Position numbers and translations under genes: made by a program. Below the pieces are notes generated by a model, which saw only the letters and a program-made list of their open reading frames with translations, made no database searches and was not told where the DNA came from. A stretch of DNA of 64,000 nucleotides from Candidatus Firestoneibacteriota bacterium. GTDB taxonomy: Bacteria; Oederibacteriota; D2-FULL-39-29; CAIOVX01. This document shows, piece after piece, positions 6,221 to 16,513 of this stretch; position 1 is the stretch's first letter; each line of letters opens with the position of its first letter. Where the stretch lies: assembly GCA_903861835.1 (NCBI GenBank), contig CAIOVX010000060.1:1-64000 (forward strand), in the 5' to 3' direction.

Positions 6221-6832
6221 CTACTCCGCCCCGGACTTCCCGGATTCCGCGGCTTTTTCTTCTTTTTCAATCTCATCTTGAGTATAGGCTCTGAAATACT
6301 GCACAAAGTAGGAAGCGTCCTTTTTTATTTCTACGGGGGAAAGAGACCAGATGGCAATCCTGTCCTTAAGGACCAGCGGCCCGCCGCCGTTGGTGCTGAC
6401 ACCCGTAAGGGCAATCTCAAGGTCATTCTTGCCCGGCTTTACCAGCAATTCTGCGTCATAACGGTCCTGGTATTTTATGGGGGTCGTAGGTTTAATAACA
6501 AAAATAAACTTGAGCGGTTTGCCCGAGGGGTTAAAAATGCCGAGTTTGATAACATCAAACCCGCCCCAGACTCCTTTCTTCGGAGGGCATTCCGCTATAC
6601 AGCCGCCCCCGTCCTCAGTTGCCGTAACCTTCAGAGTGATACCATTCTGCTTCAGCGCGTGTTCTTCGGAGAGGGAAATTTCCGACTTTATTCCGTCGTT
6701 CGAAGTTTCTCCCTTGTTAAAGTTCAGAATATCCATCTTTTTTGTCTGCGCTGCTGCCGGCCAGAGCATAAGAGATGTTGTTGCAAGCAAAAGAAGAAGC
6801 GCCTTGTTTATATTCTCCGTTAATATTCTCAT
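6221..6832 (-). CDS. Secreted beta-sandwich protein of a sigma/anti-sigma operon
   Basis: The 203-residue product has an N-terminal signal peptide (INKALLLLLATTSLMLWPAAA). The mature part looks all-beta. It includes LGIFNPSGKPLKFIF and LLVKPGKNDLEIAL, a pattern seen in carbohydrate-binding or CIA30-like jelly-roll folds. The end of the neighbouring anti-sigma factor carries the same layout (FDAYNPGKNVLIFDF, IGVKPGASRVAIDL). Its start overlaps that gene's stop by one base (TAATG), so the two are co-translated. No catalytic residues are recognised. A periplasmic or surface partner of the anti-sigma sensor is my inference. Confidence 0.6.
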   Translation of the reverse strand: MRILTENINKALLLLLATTSLMLWPAAAQTKKMDILNFNKGETSNDGIKSEISLSEEHALKQNGITLKVTATEDGGGCIAECPPKKGVWGGFDVIKLGIFNPSGKPLKFIFVIKPTTPIKYQDRYDAELLVKPGKNDLEIALTGVSTNGGGPLVLKDRIAIWSLSPVEIKKDASYFVQYFRAYTQDEIEKEEKAAESGKSGAE

Positions 6833-8505
6833 TACTTTCCCTGTGCTTCGGCCAGAAGGGCGGCCGGACGGGTTCTTTCCAGTCTGAAATTGCTCACATA
6901 AAATACCTCGGGAGTTTTTCCGAAGATATTCTGCTTAAGAACCCATTCGTGAACATTACAATTCCACCGGACCGGCTCGCCGTTGACGTAGGTAGCTTCC
7001 CGAAGATCAATCGCCACCCTGGAAGCGCCCGGTTTGACTCCTATTGAATACTTGAAGGTTCTTCCCTTAATGTCCCCCGTTTTTGCGCGCACTCGAAAAT
7101 CAAAGATCAGCACATTTTTCCCGGGATTATAGGCGTCGAAACAAAAAGTATCGTACTCTTTCCACAATTTCACTTCGGCAAAGGCCTCGCCTACCGACCA
7201 TTTTTCTCCGTGCGGCTGCACCCTTATCATTTCTTTCCCGTCCAATTGCACGCGCGCCGAAGCCGCATTAACAATGTTCGGAGGACGCGAACCCGGCTCC
7301 AGGACATACTTCACATAAATACCGTAAGAACTCAGGTTTACCGGCGAGGTCAGCCCGGAAGAGTTAAATTCATTGAAAGAGTTGGCGGCTACCGATCTGA
7401 CGCCGGCTTTCTCGGCGGCTACACCAAGATTCATCCTGACCGCGGCCGCGAACTTTTTATCCTGTTTCCCGTCACTCCCGTTCTCGCTCTCGTTCTTCAA
7501 CTCGTTAAAAACCAACGCTGACTTTAACCCATAGCCGGCTTTTGAGAGCGATACGCCGACAAGAAATTTCCCGTCGCGCGTTTTCGCCCCTTCTTTCTCG
7601 GCAGTTTTCACGACTTGAAGGTAATCGAGCGATTTAACAAGCGATTTAAGCTTCTGCTCGCCTTTAAGCTTCGTAGCTCTTTGATAGGCTAGCTTACTCT
7701 CGGCGGATCTTTCCGCGAGCATGGCCGTAAGGGAGCCGGTATAACCGTCTATGCCCGGCCTTTTACTGATATCCGAGTAAATCCTTATGGCATAGTCATA
7801 ATTCTGCGTCCTCTCGCTCTCAATAGCCAAAAGGATTTCATCTTGAACTCGCCTGGCATTCGGGCAGCAGGCTGCGGCTTCCACAACAACCCCCCCGCCA
7901 AAAACATCGTTGCATACCTTAGCCGCGCCGCCGGAAAAGCTCCCAGCGGCTTTATGCTTTACTATATCTTTAAGGATGGCTATCATTCTGACGTTATCGT
8001 GTTTGTCTATCGAGTAGAGTGCGTTTTCCAGAGAGGCAACCGCCATATAATCAACACTGCCTGCGGAAAGTTCACTTGCCTGCTGGTGCAGGAGCGCCGC
8101 CTTAACCACCGGTTCAGAACCCCCGGAGAAAGAATACTTAGCGAAATCCAGTATCTTGGTGTAATCTGAAACGCTAATAACGCTATAGACAGCGTCATAA
8201 CCGAATACCACAGCAAGAACTGCGGCTACGGCAAACAGCGACCTTAGAGCCAGCCTCGGGAAGAAACCCTGTCTGAACTTATTCTCTTCCCGCTCTATGC
8301 CGGCGAATACCTTTGAAACCATGCCGGCATCTTCCTGACAACCGCTGTCCTTGAGGAGAAGTGCTTTCGCTCCGGCAAGTTCCGAATATTCCTGACGGCA
8401 CGCGGCGCAATCCTTAAGGTGCAGTTCCAGAAACGCTTCCTCCGCGGAAGTTGCTTCCCCGGCAATTTTCCGGGTTATCAGTATTTCGCATTCTTTACAG
8501 TTCAT
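6832..8505 (-). CDS. Zinc-finger anti-sigma factor with large periplasmic sensor region
   Basis: Residues 1-40 form a ZAS-type zinc finger (C3, C6, then H29-x3-C33-x2-C36), the domain that sequesters ECF sigma factors. A membrane segment lies at about 86-104. The remaining ~450 residues should be periplasmic. First comes an Ala- and Lys-rich, probably TPR-like helical region (about 120-400). A C-terminal beta-sandwich (about 405-545) follows, resembling the adjacent secreted protein. It starts inside the sigma factor gene with an 11-base overlap, typical of a cognate pair. Ligand binding by the beta-sandwich may release the sigma factor, which is inference. Confidence 0.8.
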   Translation of the reverse strand: MNCKECEILITRKIAGEATSAEEAFLELHLKDCAACRQEYSELAGAKALLLKDSGCQEDAGMVSKVFAGIEREENKFRQGFFPRLALRSLFAVAAVLAVVFGYDAVYSVISVSDYTKILDFAKYSFSGGSEPVVKAALLHQQASELSAGSVDYMAVASLENALYSIDKHDNVRMIAILKDIVKHKAAGSFSGGAAKVCNDVFGGGVVVEAAACCPNARRVQDEILLAIESERTQNYDYAIRIYSDISKRPGIDGYTGSLTAMLAERSAESKLAYQRATKLKGEQKLKSLVKSLDYLQVVKTAEKEGAKTRDGKFLVGVSLSKAGYGLKSALVFNELKNESENGSDGKQDKKFAAAVRMNLGVAAEKAGVRSVAANSFNEFNSSGLTSPVNLSSYGIYVKYVLEPGSRPPNIVNAASARVQLDGKEMIRVQPHGEKWSVGEAFAEVKLWKEYDTFCFDAYNPGKNVLIFDFRVRAKTGDIKGRTFKYSIGVKPGASRVAIDLREATYVNGEPVRWNCNVHEWVLKQNIFGKTPEVFYVSNFRLERTRPAALLAEAQGK

Positions 8506-9064
8506 GTTCTCCCGTCACTTTTTCATATTCTTTCTTGAACAGTTTCAATCCGTAGTGCAGCCTTGACCAGACCGTGCCTTCCGGAATTTTTAGCAGTTTC
8601 GCTATCTCGGCGCATTTGAGGTCCTGGTAAACCTGAAGGACCAGGACCTCTTTGAATTCTGCCGGCAGCGCATCCAGCGACTTCCTGACAAAGTGCGCGG
8701 TATCTGTTCCCGTCACCGCATCCTCAACCATATTCCGCCGAGTTCCCTTATTCTCCGCGAACTCCAGCGGAGAAAACCTGACCTTCTGCCGCCTCGCAAT
8801 CTCATTTATATAGAGGTTCCGCGCCACCGTGTACATCCAGGTAGTGAACTTGCTCAGGCGCCGGTAGCGTTTCGCCGATTGAAAGATCTGCACAAATACC
8901 TGCTGCGCATAATCCTTCGAATCTTCGATGTTCCTAAAGTAACGGTAAAAGTAGTTTTGTAAAGGACGGGTGTGACGTTTGACCAGTTCTTCAAAGGCTT
9001 TTTTATTGCCTTTTCCGGTAAGGAGCATCAGGTCTTCGTCATTCTTGTCGGTAAGCTGGGACAT
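8495..9064 (-). CDS. ECF-family RNA polymerase sigma factor
   Basis: Region 2 is visible as EDSKDYAQQVFVQIFQSA and FTTWMYTVARNLYINEIAR. Region 4 is LDALPAEFKEVLVLQVYQD followed by the helix-turn-helix CAEIAKLLKIPEGTVWSRLH. There is no region 3, as in extracytoplasmic-function sigma factors. I place the start at the ATG at 9064 (189 residues) rather than an upstream TTG at 9088. No Shine-Dalgarno precedes it, and a good promoter ends eight bases before the ATG, so the message may be leaderless. The next gene is its anti-sigma factor. Confidence 0.93.
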   Translation of the reverse strand: MSQLTDKNDEDLMLLTGKGNKKAFEELVKRHTRPLQNYFYRYFRNIEDSKDYAQQVFVQIFQSAKRYRRLSKFTTWMYTVARNLYINEIARRQKVRFSPLEFAENKGTRRNMVEDAVTGTDTAHFVRKSLDALPAEFKEVLVLQVYQDLKCAEIAKLLKIPEGTVWSRLHYGLKLFKKEYEKVTGEHEL

Positions 9065-9072
9065 TGAAAGCC

Positions 9073-9101
9073 ATCTTAACACTATCAATAACCGTTGTCA
9101 A
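9073..9101 (-). promoter_or_regulatory. Promoter of the sigma/anti-sigma operon, possibly leaderless
   Basis: TTGACA (9096-9101) and TAAGAT (9073-9078) are 17 bases apart on the minus strand. The -10 box ends eight bases before the ATG at 9064, so transcription would begin at or next to the start codon. It resembles a housekeeping promoter rather than an ECF (GGAAC-type) one. Confidence 0.6.
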
Positions 9102-9210
9102 ATATACATAACCGACAAGCCGTTCTGATAGTTAAACAAAGCAGGCGGGGATTCCTTCAAAACATAGGGTCTGGCAGCCGGAAGTCCTCCTGTTTTTTCG
9201 CAGGCAGAAA

Positions 9211-9267: not shown

Positions 9268-10521
9268 TTATTCGGCTTTTATCACAACGATGCGATACTT
9301 AAGCGGAACCACTTTCGCCTTTACGGATTCTGAATATTTCTTTTGAAACTTGAAGTTTTCTTCCCTATAAGCTTCCACTGCAGGATATATTTTTACCATT
9401 CTTGATTTTGCTTTAAGTTCGTCGGGGAGCATTTCCGTAAACCTCTTTATTATGTTTGTTTCATACGCCTGCTTACTTAACACCTCGTTCTCTACGTCGC
9501 TGAAAGCCTGAACGAACGGGTTCTCGGGAAATTCCGCAGCGAGGTTTATTCCCTGTGAGAGTTCCTGCTTTGAAAAGACCTTCTGATTGTCGCCCCAAGA
9601 AACCTTTGCCTTTTCCCAGATAAGATTATTCACTGTGAGCGTGAACCGGTTAAGTTCCTCGTTGAACGGAATGAAAGGGAGCATGCTTTTCGCGCTATTC
9701 CGCGATTTATCCGTGAAGCAGTATGGGTATTTGCTGCTTTCTATCTCTGCCGAGCCGTTGCCGGAGGAGATTACCTTCTGCCCTTCGGAGGCCGTCGCTC
9801 CCCCGTTCATATCAATAGCGATCGAACCGATGTTTCCGTCAAATCCGAGTCCTTTAAGAAAACCGTAAGCGATGACGAGGTGGCCGTTCTGGGCAGGATG
9901 AATGCCGTCCTTTCCGCAAACATCGTATTCCTGTCCGAGTTTTTCCTTTGCCTTTGCCATGGCGGTTTTAAGGTAAGAATGTATGTCCGTATACCCTGCC
10001 TTGTTCTTTTCAGCAGTGCTTTTACAAATATCCGAGAGCTTCCCGAGCGTCTCGTTATATACCTGCGGCTGGCAGCCACCGGTCTTAAAGTAAAAAGTGT
10101 CAACCGCGCCGGCGGAACCTATGAGCAGAGCCGCGTGATACTCGTTAACAATCTTTGAGGAGATGGCCTCCATAGCGTCCCCGTATCTTTTGCCGGTAGT
10201 TTCATTGTAAGGCGCGCACCCGCCGTCATTCATTCCGTAATAAAGAGTTACTATGGTCGGTTTGAACGGTTCAAGGTCGGTCCGCATTCTCCTGAAGAAT
10301 GAAGGGGCAACCTCGCCGGACCAGCCCAGCTGAAGTACTTCGGCCTTCAATTCCGGATAGCAGGCGGCCAGGTAAACCTCAATAAACTTGCAGTATAACT
10401 TTGCCTCGGTGATTGAATCTCCCACTATGCAAAGCCGGTCTCCGGGTTTTATTTTAATTTCTTCCGTCACGGCTGATAAACCCAGCAAAGCAAGAAGCGC
10501 AGTAATGATTATTGTACGCAT
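9268..10521 (-). CDS. Secreted SGNH/GDSL-family hydrolase
   Basis: SGNH hydrolases are serine esterases, often acting on acetylated glycans. The four blocks are present: GDSIT near residue 34 (nucleophile Ser), LGWSGE (Gly), YYGMNDGG (Asn) and DGIHPAQNGH (Asp and His). A signal peptide (IIITALLALLGLSAVTEE) predicts export. The 417-residue protein has roughly 180 extra residues after the His block, containing a Cys-poor, charged region of unknown function. It is flanked by its own terminator and a repeat-bearing spacer, so it is probably monocistronic. Polysaccharide deacetylation is a family-based guess; the substrate cannot be read. Confidence 0.85.
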   Translation of the reverse strand: MRTIIITALLALLGLSAVTEEIKIKPGDRLCIVGDSITEAKLYCKFIEVYLAACYPELKAEVLQLGWSGEVAPSFFRRMRTDLEPFKPTIVTLYYGMNDGGCAPYNETTGKRYGDAMEAISSKIVNEYHAALLIGSAGAVDTFYFKTGGCQPQVYNETLGKLSDICKSTAEKNKAGYTDIHSYLKTAMAKAKEKLGQEYDVCGKDGIHPAQNGHLVIAYGFLKGLGFDGNIGSIAIDMNGGATASEGQKVISSGNGSAEIESSKYPYCFTDKSRNSAKSMLPFIPFNEELNRFTLTVNNLIWEKAKVSWGDNQKVFSKQELSQGINLAAEFPENPFVQAFSDVENEVLSKQAYETNIIKRFTEMLPDELKAKSRMVKIYPAVEAYREENFKFQKKYSESVKAKVVPLKYRIVVIKAE

Positions 10522-12573: not shown

Positions 12574-13872
12574 CTACTTCAATTCCTGCCAGATTTTTAC
12601 GCCCGCCGCTCTCTTAAGGGAAAATAGGCTCGTTACATAGGCATACTGGGCCTGGGAAAAGAAGAGCCTGGCTCTGGCAAGAGAGGTTTCGGAATTTATC
12701 AGGTCCAGGTTTGTGATAACACCGTTGTCGAACCTGACATTGGCCTGCGCCATTGCCTCTTCCGCAAGTTTCACATGCAGTTCCGCGGCCATAAGTTTCT
12801 CGTAACCCGTATTAACATCTGAGATTGCCTGGCGCACCTCGGTCTTCACGCTTTCTTCAACATCACGGCTCTTGAACTCCGCCGACGATAAGGACGCCTT
12901 TGCTTCGGCCTCGAGACCTGCCGTCCTGCCCCCGTCAAAAAGAGGTATCTTGACGCCTGCGGTCAGCACCCAGCTATTTTGAAGCAACGAAAGATCCGGG
13001 AGATAACCATTTTTGTAGCCAACCGTCCCCCCCACAAAAAGCGCCGGATTGTCGGAATTGTCCGCAACCGAAAGCTGAGCCCTCGCTATCGCTTCCCCCT
13101 TCTTCGCCATAACGCACTCCGATCTTAAAACAAGCGCTTTGGCAATGAGAGCGTTCTCGTCTGCACTCAGTTTATCCTGAAAGAACTTACCTTCAAGTTT
13201 CGGGTCAGAATCGGCTCCTATGTTCTTCTTGAGCTGCAGGAAAGCTTTCTTGCGCGAATTATCCAGGTCCGCTTTTGCGTTCTTTGATTCTTCAAGCTTA
13301 ACCTGGATGGTAAGCGCGTCAAAATCCGTGGCGCTGCCGAAAGCCACCTTCTTTCTGGTCTGGGACATATATTCCGTAAGCGAATCTATCTCTTTTTGCT
13401 GGACATCGGCTTGCTGAGTGAGAAAAAGCACGCCGTAAAAGAGTTGAATTGTCTGATAAGACAGTATGGTTTTTGAAAGCTCGATGGCGTTTTCAGCCTG
13501 AGCCAGCATTTCGTTTGAAAGGTTTATCTGCGAACCGGTCTTTCCCAGATCAAAAAGGGCGTACTTCAAGCCGGCATGGAAATCATAGTTATCTTCCGGA
13601 AAGAGCTGCATTGAACCAAACCCCGGAAAGGTCAGAGCCGGGTCGGGTTCCACCCTGGCATAAACGCCTTCAAGCTCGAGAGAAGGCCAGCAGGCCGCAA
13701 ACTTCTGGCTCAGCCTTGCAGCCGCAGCGTCCCTGTCAGAGAATGACTGTTTTATCGTCGGATAGTTCTTGAGCGCCAGTTCGACGGCCTTTCCCACCGT
13801 CAGAGTTTCCTCAGCCGCGCCAAATGCAAGAACTGCGAGCATTGCGGCAAGTGCCAGAATATTTCTTTTCAT
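12574..13872 (-). CDS. TolC-family outer membrane efflux protein
   Basis: The 432-residue protein has a signal peptide (ILALAAMLAVLAFGAAEE) and two outer-membrane-efflux-protein repeats typical of TolC. Markers include LALKNYPTIKQSF at the start, LIKxQ-like helices, and DGGRTAGLEAEAKASLSSAE in the second repeat. TolC proteins form trimeric channels spanning outer membrane and periplasm. It is the last gene of the operon with HlyD and MFS partners, so it most likely forms the exit duct of an EmrAB-type pump. A strong terminator follows. About 70 bases separate it from the pump gene. Confidence 0.92.
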   Translation of the reverse strand: MKRNILALAAMLAVLAFGAAEETLTVGKAVELALKNYPTIKQSFSDRDAAAARLSQKFAACWPSLELEGVYARVEPDPALTFPGFGSMQLFPEDNYDFHAGLKYALFDLGKTGSQINLSNEMLAQAENAIELSKTILSYQTIQLFYGVLFLTQQADVQQKEIDSLTEYMSQTRKKVAFGSATDFDALTIQVKLEESKNAKADLDNSRKKAFLQLKKNIGADSDPKLEGKFFQDKLSADENALIAKALVLRSECVMAKKGEAIARAQLSVADNSDNPALFVGGTVGYKNGYLPDLSLLQNSWVLTAGVKIPLFDGGRTAGLEAEAKASLSSAEFKSRDVEESVKTEVRQAISDVNTGYEKLMAAELHVKLAEEAMAQANVRFDNGVITNLDLINSETSLARARLFFSQAQYAYVTSLFSLKRAAGVKIWQELK

Positions 13873-13944
13873 TGTTTTCTCCTGATCTAATTAAACTACC
13901 GCTGACTTAAGAGCGACGGTATTTTATTTTTGTGTATATTACGC

Positions 13945-15567
13945 TCAATCCAGAGCCACAACTTCCTCGGCCGCGGAATCTTTTTTCTTTCCGGCCCTTA
14001 AAATAAAGACAGGCACAAGTATCGCAAGTGTCACTATGGCTGCGATTATGAAACAATCGCAGATTGCATGCACAAATGCCTGTTTCTGGATTTCGCTCAT
14101 TATCAAAGCTCCGGCCTGAGAACCGGCAATGCCGGGAGCACTGTTAAAATCTCTGACGAAATGGCCGGCTACCCTGGAATACGTGTTTTTAAATATTGGG
14201 CTTGACGGGTCCAGGCTCTGCCCATATATCGAAGCATGAAACACGGTGCGCCTGGTAAGGATGGCGCCAAAGATTGCTATTCCAAAACTGCCGCCAATCT
14301 GCCGAATGACATTTATCAGACCGGAAGCCTGCGCCATTTTGTCCCTGGGTATCTCAAGAAGCGACACGGTAGTCAGGGGGGTGAATATTAGCCCCATCGC
14401 CAGACCGCGTACACCCAGCAACATATACATGAACGGCTTCTCCGTCTGCAGAGTGAGTTTTGAGTTAAGGTAAAGGCTCACGACAAGCAATATTATGCCG
14501 ACTGCCGCCGGGAGTTTCGGGCTGACCCTGTCGGCAATTATGCCAGATAGGGGCGATGCAAAAGCCTGCAGTATTCCCACAGGAAGAAACATGCTCCCCG
14601 CCATTATCGCTGTATAGCCCAGCGCGTTCTGCCAGTAAAGCGGCATCAGGAAGGTGCTCCCAAACATGCCTATGCCGAAGATAAACATTATTGCATTGCT
14701 GGCCGTAAAATTGAAATTTTTGAAGAGTTTAATCTCTATGAAAGGATGCTCCTGGTGTAATTCAACTATCAGAAATGTTATCAGACTGACCAGCGCTATG
14801 GTGAAACACCCGACAATGAAGGGCGAGGTCCATCCCCCCGTATTCCAGGCAGCGTTGCCTTCCGAGAGCCCGAGCAGCATAGATGTAAGAAAAGCCGTTA
14901 TGGTAATGAATCCCAGAAAATCAAAATCCCTGGTGTTAGCTGTCTTGTATTCCCGCTGGATTATCAGGGTCACGAGCAGTCCGAATATGCCTATCGGAAC
15001 ATTCACAAAGAATATAGCCTGCCAGCTTATGTTGTCAACCAGGTAGCCGCCTATCAGCGGGCCGAAAGATACAGAGGCCGCTGCGGCAATACCCCAAAAC
15101 CCCATGGCCATGCCGCGCTGCTCCTTCGGAAACTCCCTCATAATAGTGGCAAGTCCGACCGGCATCAGCATACCGGCGCCGAGTCCCTGAAGAAGCCTAA
15201 AAGTGATTAGGGAACTCTCGTTCCAGGAGAGGCCGCAAAGTAAAGAACCAAGCGTGAAAACAGCGAGTGCCGTAAAATAGGTTTTTTTGTATCCGAGATG
15301 CTCGGCTATCCAGCCGGAGGCCGGGAGCATTACCCCGAGGGCCAGGTTGTAGCCGGTCATTATCCATTCTATTGAATCGAGGGTAGCCCCGAGCGAAGCC
15401 ATTATCTTTGAGAGCCCTACATTGACGATAGTGGAGTCCAGCACTGCTATAAAGGTGCCTATCATAACGTTAAGCAGCACCCACCATTTGTAGCTGGAAT
15501 GTTCGTGATGGATAGAAGGTACCCTGGCAATAATACCTCTCTTTATGGCATGATGAGGAGAGGCCAC
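13945..15567 (-). CDS. DHA2-family MFS drug efflux transporter (EmrB/QacA type)
   Basis: The 540-residue protein has about 14 membrane segments. It carries the MFS signatures DSTIVNVGLSKI, GYNLALGVMLPASGW, a motif A region around AEHLGYKKTYF, and motif C (MGFWGIAAAASVSFGPLIGG) marking antiporters of the DHA2 group. These pumps export hydrophobic toxicants using the proton gradient. The start is GTG at 15567, one base after the HlyD stop. The first ~25 residues are His-rich and polar. Partners HlyD upstream and TolC downstream make a tripartite pump. Confidence 0.92.
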   Translation of the reverse strand: MASPHHAIKRGIIARVPSIHHEHSSYKWWVLLNVMIGTFIAVLDSTIVNVGLSKIMASLGATLDSIEWIMTGYNLALGVMLPASGWIAEHLGYKKTYFTALAVFTLGSLLCGLSWNESSLITFRLLQGLGAGMLMPVGLATIMREFPKEQRGMAMGFWGIAAAASVSFGPLIGGYLVDNISWQAIFFVNVPIGIFGLLVTLIIQREYKTANTRDFDFLGFITITAFLTSMLLGLSEGNAAWNTGGWTSPFIVGCFTIALVSLITFLIVELHQEHPFIEIKLFKNFNFTASNAIMFIFGIGMFGSTFLMPLYWQNALGYTAIMAGSMFLPVGILQAFASPLSGIIADRVSPKLPAAVGIILLVVSLYLNSKLTLQTEKPFMYMLLGVRGLAMGLIFTPLTTVSLLEIPRDKMAQASGLINVIRQIGGSFGIAIFGAILTRRTVFHASIYGQSLDPSSPIFKNTYSRVAGHFVRDFNSAPGIAGSQAGALIMSEIQKQAFVHAICDCFIIAAIVTLAILVPVFILRAGKKKDSAAEEVVALD

Positions 15568-15568
15568 T

Positions 15569-16513
15569 CTATTTTGTCTTAACCAGCACTTCTACTGACA
15601 TTCCCGGCAACAGTTTTCCGGGATTTTTTTCGAGAAGGTCCCTATCGGGTGTTATTTTAATCGGGATTCTCTGGGTTACTTTGGTAAAGTTCCCTGAAGC
15701 GTTGCTGGATGGTATAAGCGAGAACTGGGAAGCCGTGTTGGAACCGAGCTGGCTGACCTTGCCGCGCAGTTTCATACCGCCGTACGCGTCAACGGTAATA
15801 TCCGCTGTCTGGCCAACAGAAAGCTGGGAGAACTTTGTCTCCTCAAGATTGGCCGCTATCCACACATTCTTTATGTCGTAAACGGTATATATGGCCTGCC
15901 CCGCGGTTACAACATCCCCGGAAAGCACCCATTTTTTTGCCACCACCCCGTCCATCGGAGCCTTAATCTCGGCATTCCCGAGCTGAGTTTCAATGACGCC
16001 CAGCTGCGCCTGTGAGGTCAATATCTGCGCCTGCGCTATAGAATCCTGGACTTTTGCGGATTGAAAAGCTTTCTTTGCGTGGTCATACTGTTCTTTCGCC
16101 ACTATTTTGTTTTTATACTGAGCCTCAACGCGCTGAAAATCTTCTTCCGCCTTGGAGAGGTTAACCTTCGCGAGCTTGCTGCTCTCCTGCGCAAAAGAAA
16201 CAGAGGCTTTTGCCTGTTCTTTCTGGGCCAGCAGGTCAGAAGTATCAAGAATAGCTATCACCTGGCCGCTTACAACATTTGCGCCTTCCGAAGCGGCAAG
16301 CGATGCTACTCGTCCGGAATATTTGGAGCTTATTGTCGCCTTATCGGCGTCAATGAACGCGTCATCGGTGTAGACTTCTCTGCCTGACTTCAGGTACCAC
16401 AGCACGTAAAGCACGGCGGCAACCGCTACCAGCCCCAGGACAATAACTATCATCCTTGTTTTTGAACTCGGCTCCTCGCCCCTTTCTTCTGTTTCCAGGA
16501 TCTGATCTGCCAT
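15569..16513 (-). CDS. HlyD/EmrA-family membrane fusion protein
   Basis: The protein links an inner-membrane pump to a TolC channel. A single N-terminal membrane segment (about 21-41: IVIVLGLVAVAAVLYVLWYL) is followed by VYTDDAFIDADKATISSKYSG, a typical EmrA beginning. An alpha-hairpin coiled coil with Ala, Lys and Gln follows, then the lipoyl-like and beta-barrel regions (IKAPMDGVVAKKWVLSGDVV; GKLLPGMSVEVLVK). Its start codon overlaps the regulator stop (TAATG), and the MFS gene follows after one base. At 314 residues it is slightly short for EmrA. Confidence 0.93.
   Translation of the reverse strand: MADQILETEERGEEPSSKTRMIVIVLGLVAVAAVLYVLWYLKSGREVYTDDAFIDADKATISSKYSGRVASLAASEGANVVSGQVIAILDTSDLLAQKEQAKASVSFAQESSKLAKVNLSKAEEDFQRVEAQYKNKIVAKEQYDHAKKAFQSAKVQDSIAQAQILTSQAQLGVIETQLGNAEIKAPMDGVVAKKWVLSGDVVTAGQAIYTVYDIKNVWIAANLEETKFSQLSVGQTADITVDAYGGMKLRGKVSQLGSNTASQFSLIPSSNASGNFTKVTQRIPIKITPDRDLLEKNPGKLLPGMSVEVLVKTK

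Follow-up and report, generated by a model that had tools for sequence, protein, structure and literature searches.

A stretch of 64,000 nucleotides from a Candidatus Firestoneibacteriota bacterium (contig CAIOVX010000060.1, positions 1 to 64,000; hereafter the window) carries a three-gene operon encoding an extracytoplasmic function (ECF) sigma factor, a membrane anti-sigma factor with an N-terminal zf-HC2 domain, and a secreted protein. We propose, with a probability of about 0.5, that the first two gene products constitute an autoregulated switch whose sensor was drawn from a lineage-expanded family of secreted proteins resembling carbohydrate-binding module (CBM) family 11. Judging by a DNA signal shared among upstream regions, the switch may activate its own genes together with a protein-export machine and some members of the secreted family. 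The host, an uncultured lake bacterium, has a genome of 2.18 Mb in 103 contigs (98% complete), here called G000; G001, G002 and G003 are the other three genomes of the genus, and G008 belongs to another family of the same order.

As the preliminary description of this DNA had stated, a sigma/anti-sigma pair lies next to a secreted-protein gene: three open reading frames (ORFs) overlap on the minus strand, and Pfam supports both an ECF sigma factor and a zf-HC2 anti-sigma factor. The features of the region are as follows.

8495-9064, minus strand: ECF sigma factor gene, 189 amino acids (aa); Sigma70_r2 and Sigma70_r4_2 above the Pfam cut-off, TIGR02937 above its cut-off.
6832-8505, minus strand: membrane anti-sigma factor gene, 557 aa; zf-HC2 above the cut-off; overlaps the sigma gene.
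8395-8499, minus strand: zf-HC2 domain, residues 3-37 (PF13490, 24.9 bits, cut-off 22.2).
8185-8253, minus strand: putative transmembrane segment, about residues 85-107; hydrophobic by eye in the translation, model helix 84-101 at low confidence.
7276-8184, minus strand: helical middle region, residues 108-410; no Pfam match at E <= 10 (residues 96-394), predicted local distance difference test (pLDDT) mostly below 50.
6874-7275, minus strand: CBM11-like sensor domain, residues 411-544; matched to the secreted family by hhalign at 97.2%, the envelope of the family hidden Markov model starting at residue 411.
6221-6832, minus strand: gene of the secreted CBM11-like protein, 203 aa, mature part about residues 30-203; AlphaFold2 (AF2) model, fold matches and signal peptide by eye.
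9133-9159, minus strand: candidate ECF promoter TGAAGGAA-N12-TTGTTTA; exact match, block conserved in G001, enriched genus-wide.
9073-9101, minus strand: sigma-70-like promoter TTGACA-N17-TAAGAT; 10 of 12 letters, conserved in G001 and G003.

The sigma product matched PF04542 with 49.9 bits (cut-off 24), PF08281 with 36.7 bits (25.7) and TIGR02937 with 75.7 bits (42.9). Regions 2 and 4 were present and no match to region 3 was listed, the arrangement of an ECF sigma factor. The anti-sigma product was assigned to the zf-HC2 type on its N-terminal zinc finger and the overlap of its gene with the ECF sigma gene. The order sigma, anti-sigma, secreted protein was retained in G001 and G003, and the order anti-sigma, secreted protein in G002, whose contig ends there; the secreted gene came after the anti-sigma gene in 4 of 4 genus genomes. 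A long match to the window anti-sigma factor was found in 4 of 59 genomes, every one of this genus, and the three named records that contain close relatives of it were all from Candidatus Firestonebacteria.

Judging from sequence comparison, the tail of the anti-sigma factor and the secreted protein are homologous. The similar patterns noticed earlier, YNPGK...KPG in the anti-sigma factor and FNPSGK...KPGK in the secreted protein, were present, and BLASTP aligned the two at E = 3e-5. Profile-profile alignment with hhalign matched the tail to the secreted family at 97.2% (E = 4.3e-11), whereas the control, the tail against the profile of an unrelated anti-sigma scaffold, gave 0.06%. Used as a query, the tail retrieved secreted paralogs elsewhere in its own genome (best E = 2.2e-6). 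The secreted protein begins with a stretch that, by eye, resembles a signal peptide.

The AF2 model of the secreted protein (pLDDT 92.2) showed a CBM11-type beta-sandwich, with other CBM families close behind. Its top Foldseek match was CtCBM11 (1.6e-6), from Clostridium thermocellum Lic26A-Cel5E; with VIA-align, CtCBM11 gave Z = 14.2 over 149 residues at 3.0 Å, and GH50 (glycoside hydrolase family 50) agarases tied at 14.3. CtCBM11 is the best solved relative by fold, from which the window protein differs in being a stand-alone secreted domain with about 14% identity and no Pfam CBM_11 match. The model of the anti-sigma factor was poor (mean pLDDT 48.3), with helices at low confidence in the middle and strands in the tail. 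CtCBM11 was again the top Foldseek match, and VIA-align placed the sensor domain on it at Z = 10.2 over 125 residues at 3.5 Å; the alignment behind this model contained rows of the secreted family, so these matches are not independent evidence. With that qualification, the comparison of folds proposed earlier gave the same best match for each domain, and unrelated folds did not occur. The leading matches were mostly CBMs or CBM-like parts of enzymes, and they were accompanied by a complex I assembly factor, FlaA1 and a viral turret; because of these non-CBM proteins, the fold hints at sugar binding but is no proof of it. Of the earlier characterization as a sugar-binding-like beta-sandwich, the CBM11-like fold of the secreted protein stands, and sugar binding by the sensor or the secreted domain is suggested by the fold alone. 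Compared with the sequences of solved structures, the family profile gave best E values of 0.057 (a CBM27 mannanase) and 0.075 (CtCBM11), neither significant; Pfam CBM_11 was matched by 4 of 21 family members (best E = 2.5e-4).

A candidate promoter lies upstream of the sigma operon and of part of the secreted family. In a spaced word-pair scan of the family upstreams of G000 (those shorter than 100 bases dropped), TGAA...TTGT occurred in 8 of 20, with 0.5 expected; in 20 shuffles the highest count of any word pair was 4 to 7. The motif TGAAGGAA-N12-TTGTT was derived by reading the family upstreams, and whole genomes were then searched with it. Exact matches numbered 17 in the four genus genomes (6 in G000; 5, 3 and 3 in the others), against 0 for the reversed pattern and a composition-based expectation of 0.25-0.39. 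The other 41 genomes of the phylum had 6, compared with 7 for the reversed control, and 5 of these 6 were within ORFs or at an ORF start. Each of the 17 genus matches preceded a gene: 10 secreted-family genes, 4 gspE genes (one per genome), 2 sigma operons (G000 and G001) and one gene of the TPR (tetratricopeptide repeat)/YbgF type (G001). The motif before the sigma gene sits in a stretch shared with G001. Two of the 10 family genes (L136 and L157) are cut by contig ends and were identified by eye from their first codons, and L157 also overlaps a 93-aa ORF on the opposite strand. Orthologues are not independent: seven distinct promoters were counted, and C13 and C17 look like duplicates. The spacers differ from promoter to promoter.

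With a 15-letter form of the motif, G000 had 8 sites with at most one mismatch, one inside a gene and seven intergenic and upstream. The upstream sites belong to the sigma operon, three family genes, gspE and two GH123-like genes; of the last two, the C73 gene is above the cut-off, and the C27 gene, cut by a contig end, was judged by eye. Among the upstreams compared for the genus, scores of at least 12 of 15 were reached by 8 of 39 family upstreams versus 2 of 99 upstreams of other genes (Fisher p = 6e-4, post hoc); this scoring set aside the G001 sigma gene and omitted open ORFs, upstreams shorter than 120 bases and second copies of an identical 60-base stretch. The operon headed by gspE was read in G000, gspE alone being seen in the other three genomes. 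Its GspE is above the equivalog cut-off (642.9 versus 630.25), and the gene is followed by a GspF-type gene (T2SSF above cut-off) and gspG (above cut-off); four smaller pseudopilin-type genes after gspG match GspH, I, J and K, all below cut-off.

G000 has nine places with a match to sigma region 2, and the exact motif lies upstream of one of them, the window sigma gene. Because of this sole match, and because ECF sigma factors usually drive their own operon (PMC6056542, in part), we infer that the motif is the promoter recognized by the window sigma factor. Through this putative promoter, the gspE operon and some of the secreted-family genes are likely targets of the switch.

In anti-sigma factors of this family, the zf-HC2 domain holds the sigma factor, and release of sigma follows inactivation of the anti-sigma factor. 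In the mechanism that we propose, sigma would be held by the zinc finger of the anti-sigma factor in the membrane, and the periplasmic tail would engage a ligand. Our best guess for this ligand, and the most likely one, is a soluble glycan fragment of the sort to which the secreted paralogs would bind as well. Engagement of the ligand would inactivate the anti-sigma factor, by conformational change or regulated proteolysis, and the signal would thereby cross the membrane and set sigma free. Free sigma would transcribe from TGAAGGAA-N12-TTGTTTA promoters its own operon, with one secreted copy, and several other secreted-family genes. Further predicted targets are the gspE-headed type II secretion operon and probably also the two GH123-like enzyme genes.

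The secreted family is large. With the window protein as query, 16 further places in G000 were found at E <= 1; the family profile (E <= 1e-5) gave 22 matches in this genome, counting the window protein, the anti-sigma tail and a 57-aa fragment, and 17 of the 22 were within open frames of 168-243 aa. There were 20, 19 and 13 matches in the other three genus genomes and 30 in G008; the family was present in 14 of 45 phylum genomes, nine of these with just one or two matches. These counts are lower bounds, as contigs end inside some family genes (L025, L136). With 22 family matches in G000, the window secreted protein is no private partner of the sensor. A few copies are found on larger proteins, among them a GH141-type enzyme and CsgG-type proteins: in G000 a family domain lies at the C-terminus of a GH141-type protein (L034:1892-4135), and in G008 family domains lie on CsgG-type proteins (L087:1297-3704), one of which has two copies. 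Short direct repeats (AACGTTTGT/AACGTTCGT) were seen in L031 just upstream of the secreted-family gene 2208-2846.

In a tree of 80 rows (domain matches spanning fewer than 90 profile positions excluded), the four anti-sigma tails and the four operon-secreted proteins each formed a clade of their own, placed in separate regions of the tree; long branches were flagged. The operon-secreted protein grouped with other secreted paralogs, not with the sensor; an approximately unbiased (AU) test did not reject a joint clade of tails and operon-secreted proteins (p-AU 0.305). A recent duplication of the neighbouring gene as the origin of the sensor domain was considered and provisionally set aside on the separate clades, given this p-AU for a joint clade.

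On sequence grounds, the CBM-like sensor tail is a recurrent fusion, which also ends a second anti-sigma-like protein in another family. This protein of G008 (L081; 590 aa, cut by a contig end) has TPRs above the cut-off and a family domain that shares 65% identity over 173 aa with a secreted paralog from the same genome; its zinc-finger match is sub-threshold (17.0 versus 22.2 bits), and no sigma gene lies directly upstream. By hhalign it matched the zf-HC2/TPR scaffold of L035, L114 and L115 over 317 columns (97%, E = 8e-11). These three (L035:1938-3281, L114:382-1755, L115:685-2073) represent a zf-HC2 anti-sigma lineage with a TPR-type periplasmic part and without the CBM-like tail; the lineage occurs in both families of the order, and L081 is the same scaffold plus the tail.

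A TPR-like region had been ascribed to the window anti-sigma factor as well, an assignment that was not confirmed: residues 96-394 gave no Pfam match at E <= 10, and the modelled helices mostly had pLDDT below 50. TPR matches occurred in two other zf-HC2-type proteins, above the cut-off in L081 and just below it in L035. When the window anti-sigma factor was compared with the L035/L114/L115 scaffold, the hhalign match covered residues 2-159 only (72%, E = 3.4e-5); alignment with L081 likewise covered residues 24-145 only, at 60%. The genome also encodes a site-2-type protease.

Other explanations were weighed against the autoregulated switch. The preliminary description had supposed that the operon's secreted copy competes for the ligand or delivers it to the sensor. 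We found no specific support for this, the protein being one of 22 family matches and grouping with other paralogs (with the joint clade at p-AU 0.305), and a dedicated decoy or carrier seems quite improbable: its gene does follow the anti-sigma gene throughout the genus, but many paralogs share the fold, and the tree does not join the sensor and its operon partner as sisters, subject to the same AU result. More plausibly, the secreted protein belongs to a numerous set of switch products and is no private competitor of the sensor. The domain could also be a protein-interaction or surface-structure module and no carbohydrate binder, in which case the tail would sense envelope assembly or stress. 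The fold shared with a complex I assembly factor, FlaA1 and a viral turret and the family members on CsgG-type proteins are consistent with such a role; the predominance of CBMs and enzyme-borne CBM-like domains among the leading matches, the CBM_11 matches of 4 of 21 members and the member fused to a GH141-type enzyme argue for sugar binding, and we regard the module as rather unlikely.

There is a small chance that the switch instead surveys cargo. An anti-sigma factor with a cargo mimic would read the periplasmic cargo load via the shared fold: resembling the secreted-family exports, the sensor would detect their backlog in the periplasm, through homotypic contact or competition for the secretion machine, and raise both secretion machinery and cargo, its ligand being the protein family itself. 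Capture of the cargo domain would then have occurred at least twice in the order, on different scaffolds, a scenario to which we likewise give low odds. The motif stands before gspE in each genome of the genus and before 10 secreted-family genes, the sensor belongs to the cargo family (in G008 it is 65% identical to a secreted paralog), a periplasmic sensor would presumably meet exported proteins directly, and PorA and PorXY-SigP signalling of type IX secretion offers a possible parallel (PMC7712824, in part). However, this reading would require export of the family by type II secretion or binding between its members, both of them suppositions, and the CBM-like fold and the two motif-bearing GH123-like genes fit a sugar signal equally. 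Another possibility, also of low probability, is that the motif belongs to a different regulator, a transcription factor or another sigma factor, with the window sigma operon merely a target. The motif was assigned to this sigma factor solely by its place ahead of the sigma operon; nine places in the genome match sigma region 2, and a separate sigma-70-like promoter lies nearer the sigma gene. Against this, ECF sigma factors usually drive their own operon (PMC6056542, in part), -35 and -10 elements would account for two blocks whose distance is constant while the spacer sequence varies, and the window sigma gene is the only one of the nine places with an exact upstream match.

Several points weigh against the autoregulated switch itself. 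The motif was discovered post hoc. Searching with two mismatches yielded mostly noise (22 sites in total versus 18 in the control), 11 of the 14 two-mismatch sites lying inside ORFs. Since 8 of 39 family upstreams score at least 12 of 15, most of the family would be outside the predicted regulon. G008 had no exact motif match despite possessing the domain and a related sigma factor. The motif before the sigma operon could be looked for in G000 and G001, contigs ending in G002 and G003. The window secreted protein had no Pfam match at E <= 1, CBM_11 included, and the FlaA1 and complex I factor matches count on the same side.

By analogy, the window system works most like SigI/RsgI of C. thermocellum, yet it is not a member. 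According to parts of PMC4711584, the C. thermocellum anti-sigma factors bear CBM-type modules, that of RsgI6 being 57% identical to Xyn10D, and SigI6 activates the Xyn10D promoter in B. subtilis. Both systems combine a sigma factor and a membrane anti-sigma factor in one operon with a CBM-type or enzyme-like ectodomain (PMC4711584 and PMC6056542, in part), and in both the sensor resembles a secreted product; here the homology was found, and that the product is also a target is predicted from the motif. SigI lacks region 4 and has a SigI-type C-terminal domain (PMC6056542, in part), whereas the window sigma factor has region 4, its inhibitory domain is zf-HC2, and a type II secretion operon is among its predicted targets. 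VreI/VreR (PUMA3) of Pseudomonas aeruginosa is similar in that an ECF sigma factor with a transmembrane anti-sigma factor raises type II secretion genes (Hxc); it differs in using the receptor-like VreA (PMC2729926, in part), whereas the window operon has no TonB-type receptor and its anti-sigma factor has a CBM-like tail. With zf-HC2 (ZAS-type) ECF anti-sigma factors the window protein shares the N-terminal zf-HC2 domain, a membrane segment (by eye here) and a gene overlapping the sigma gene; it differs by its CBM11-like C-terminal ectodomain. None of the papers listed in the literature searches described, in its title or the start of its abstract, a zf-HC2 anti-sigma factor with a CBM-type tail.

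If the proposal is true, the SigI/RsgI strategy of a sensor resembling a secreted product would also occur in a system built from an ECF sigma factor and a zf-HC2 anti-sigma factor, which has type II secretion as a further target. Whether such sensors read substrate or cargo becomes testable. For an uncultured candidate phylum there are now a sensor, a sigma factor, a promoter sequence and a list of targets, all open to testing in laboratory E. coli or B. subtilis without growing the organism itself.

The sibling clade Goldbacteria also has a high CBM11 copy number, 24, there reported alongside cellulases, whereas genes for cellulose degradation and flagella are absent from the Firestonebacteria compared (PMC7031533, in part). 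The term sigma factor does not occur in that paper, and the papers listed that name Firestonebacteria have the name in neither title nor abstract. A role of the secreted family as flagellar sheath, raised by the FlaA1 fold match, is disfavoured only by the absence of flagellar genes in the compared Firestonebacteria, as given in a figure legend of PMC7031533.

The closest match of the window sigma factor in G008 was the L079 sigma factor (97.1 bits, next 94.0; 13 of 14 G008 sigma places compared), whose best match back was the window sigma factor (97.1 bits, next 74.7; 8 of 9 own sigma places compared); the two places left out have open frames of 583 and 594 aa, the size of a primary sigma factor. 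The L079 sigma gene ends 31 bases upstream of a secreted-family gene, and no anti-sigma gene lies between the two (L079:302-1613).

One sigma-70-like promoter was found near the window sigma gene, with 0.3 expected. Between its -10 box and the sigma ATG lie 8 bases (window 9064-9101), so that a transcript from it would be almost leaderless; this promoter could supply basal expression. Family genes were also considered as sigma-70 targets, a candidate that was rejected: scores of at least 9 of 12 occurred in 0.35 of 20 upstreams of G000 (sigma operon included) versus 0.14 of shuffled ones, and in 0.32 of 28 family upstreams of G008 versus 0.31. The sigma-70-like promoter and the sigma start codon lie between the arms of a perfect 9-bp inverted repeat, CTTGTCGGT / ACCGACAAG (window 9044-9052 and 9111-9119, 58 nt apart); both arms were recognized by eye in G001 and G003, and the repeat is possibly an operator pair or an RNA hairpin.

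Upstream, the sigma gene adjoins a GDSL-type esterase gene, both here (window 9268-10521) and in G001 (L038:114-1370), with a terminator-like site between the two. Farther away, three minus-strand genes (window 12574-16513) form, by eye, a tripartite efflux set: TolC-like, a transporter with 14 transmembrane segments, and HlyD/EmrA-like.

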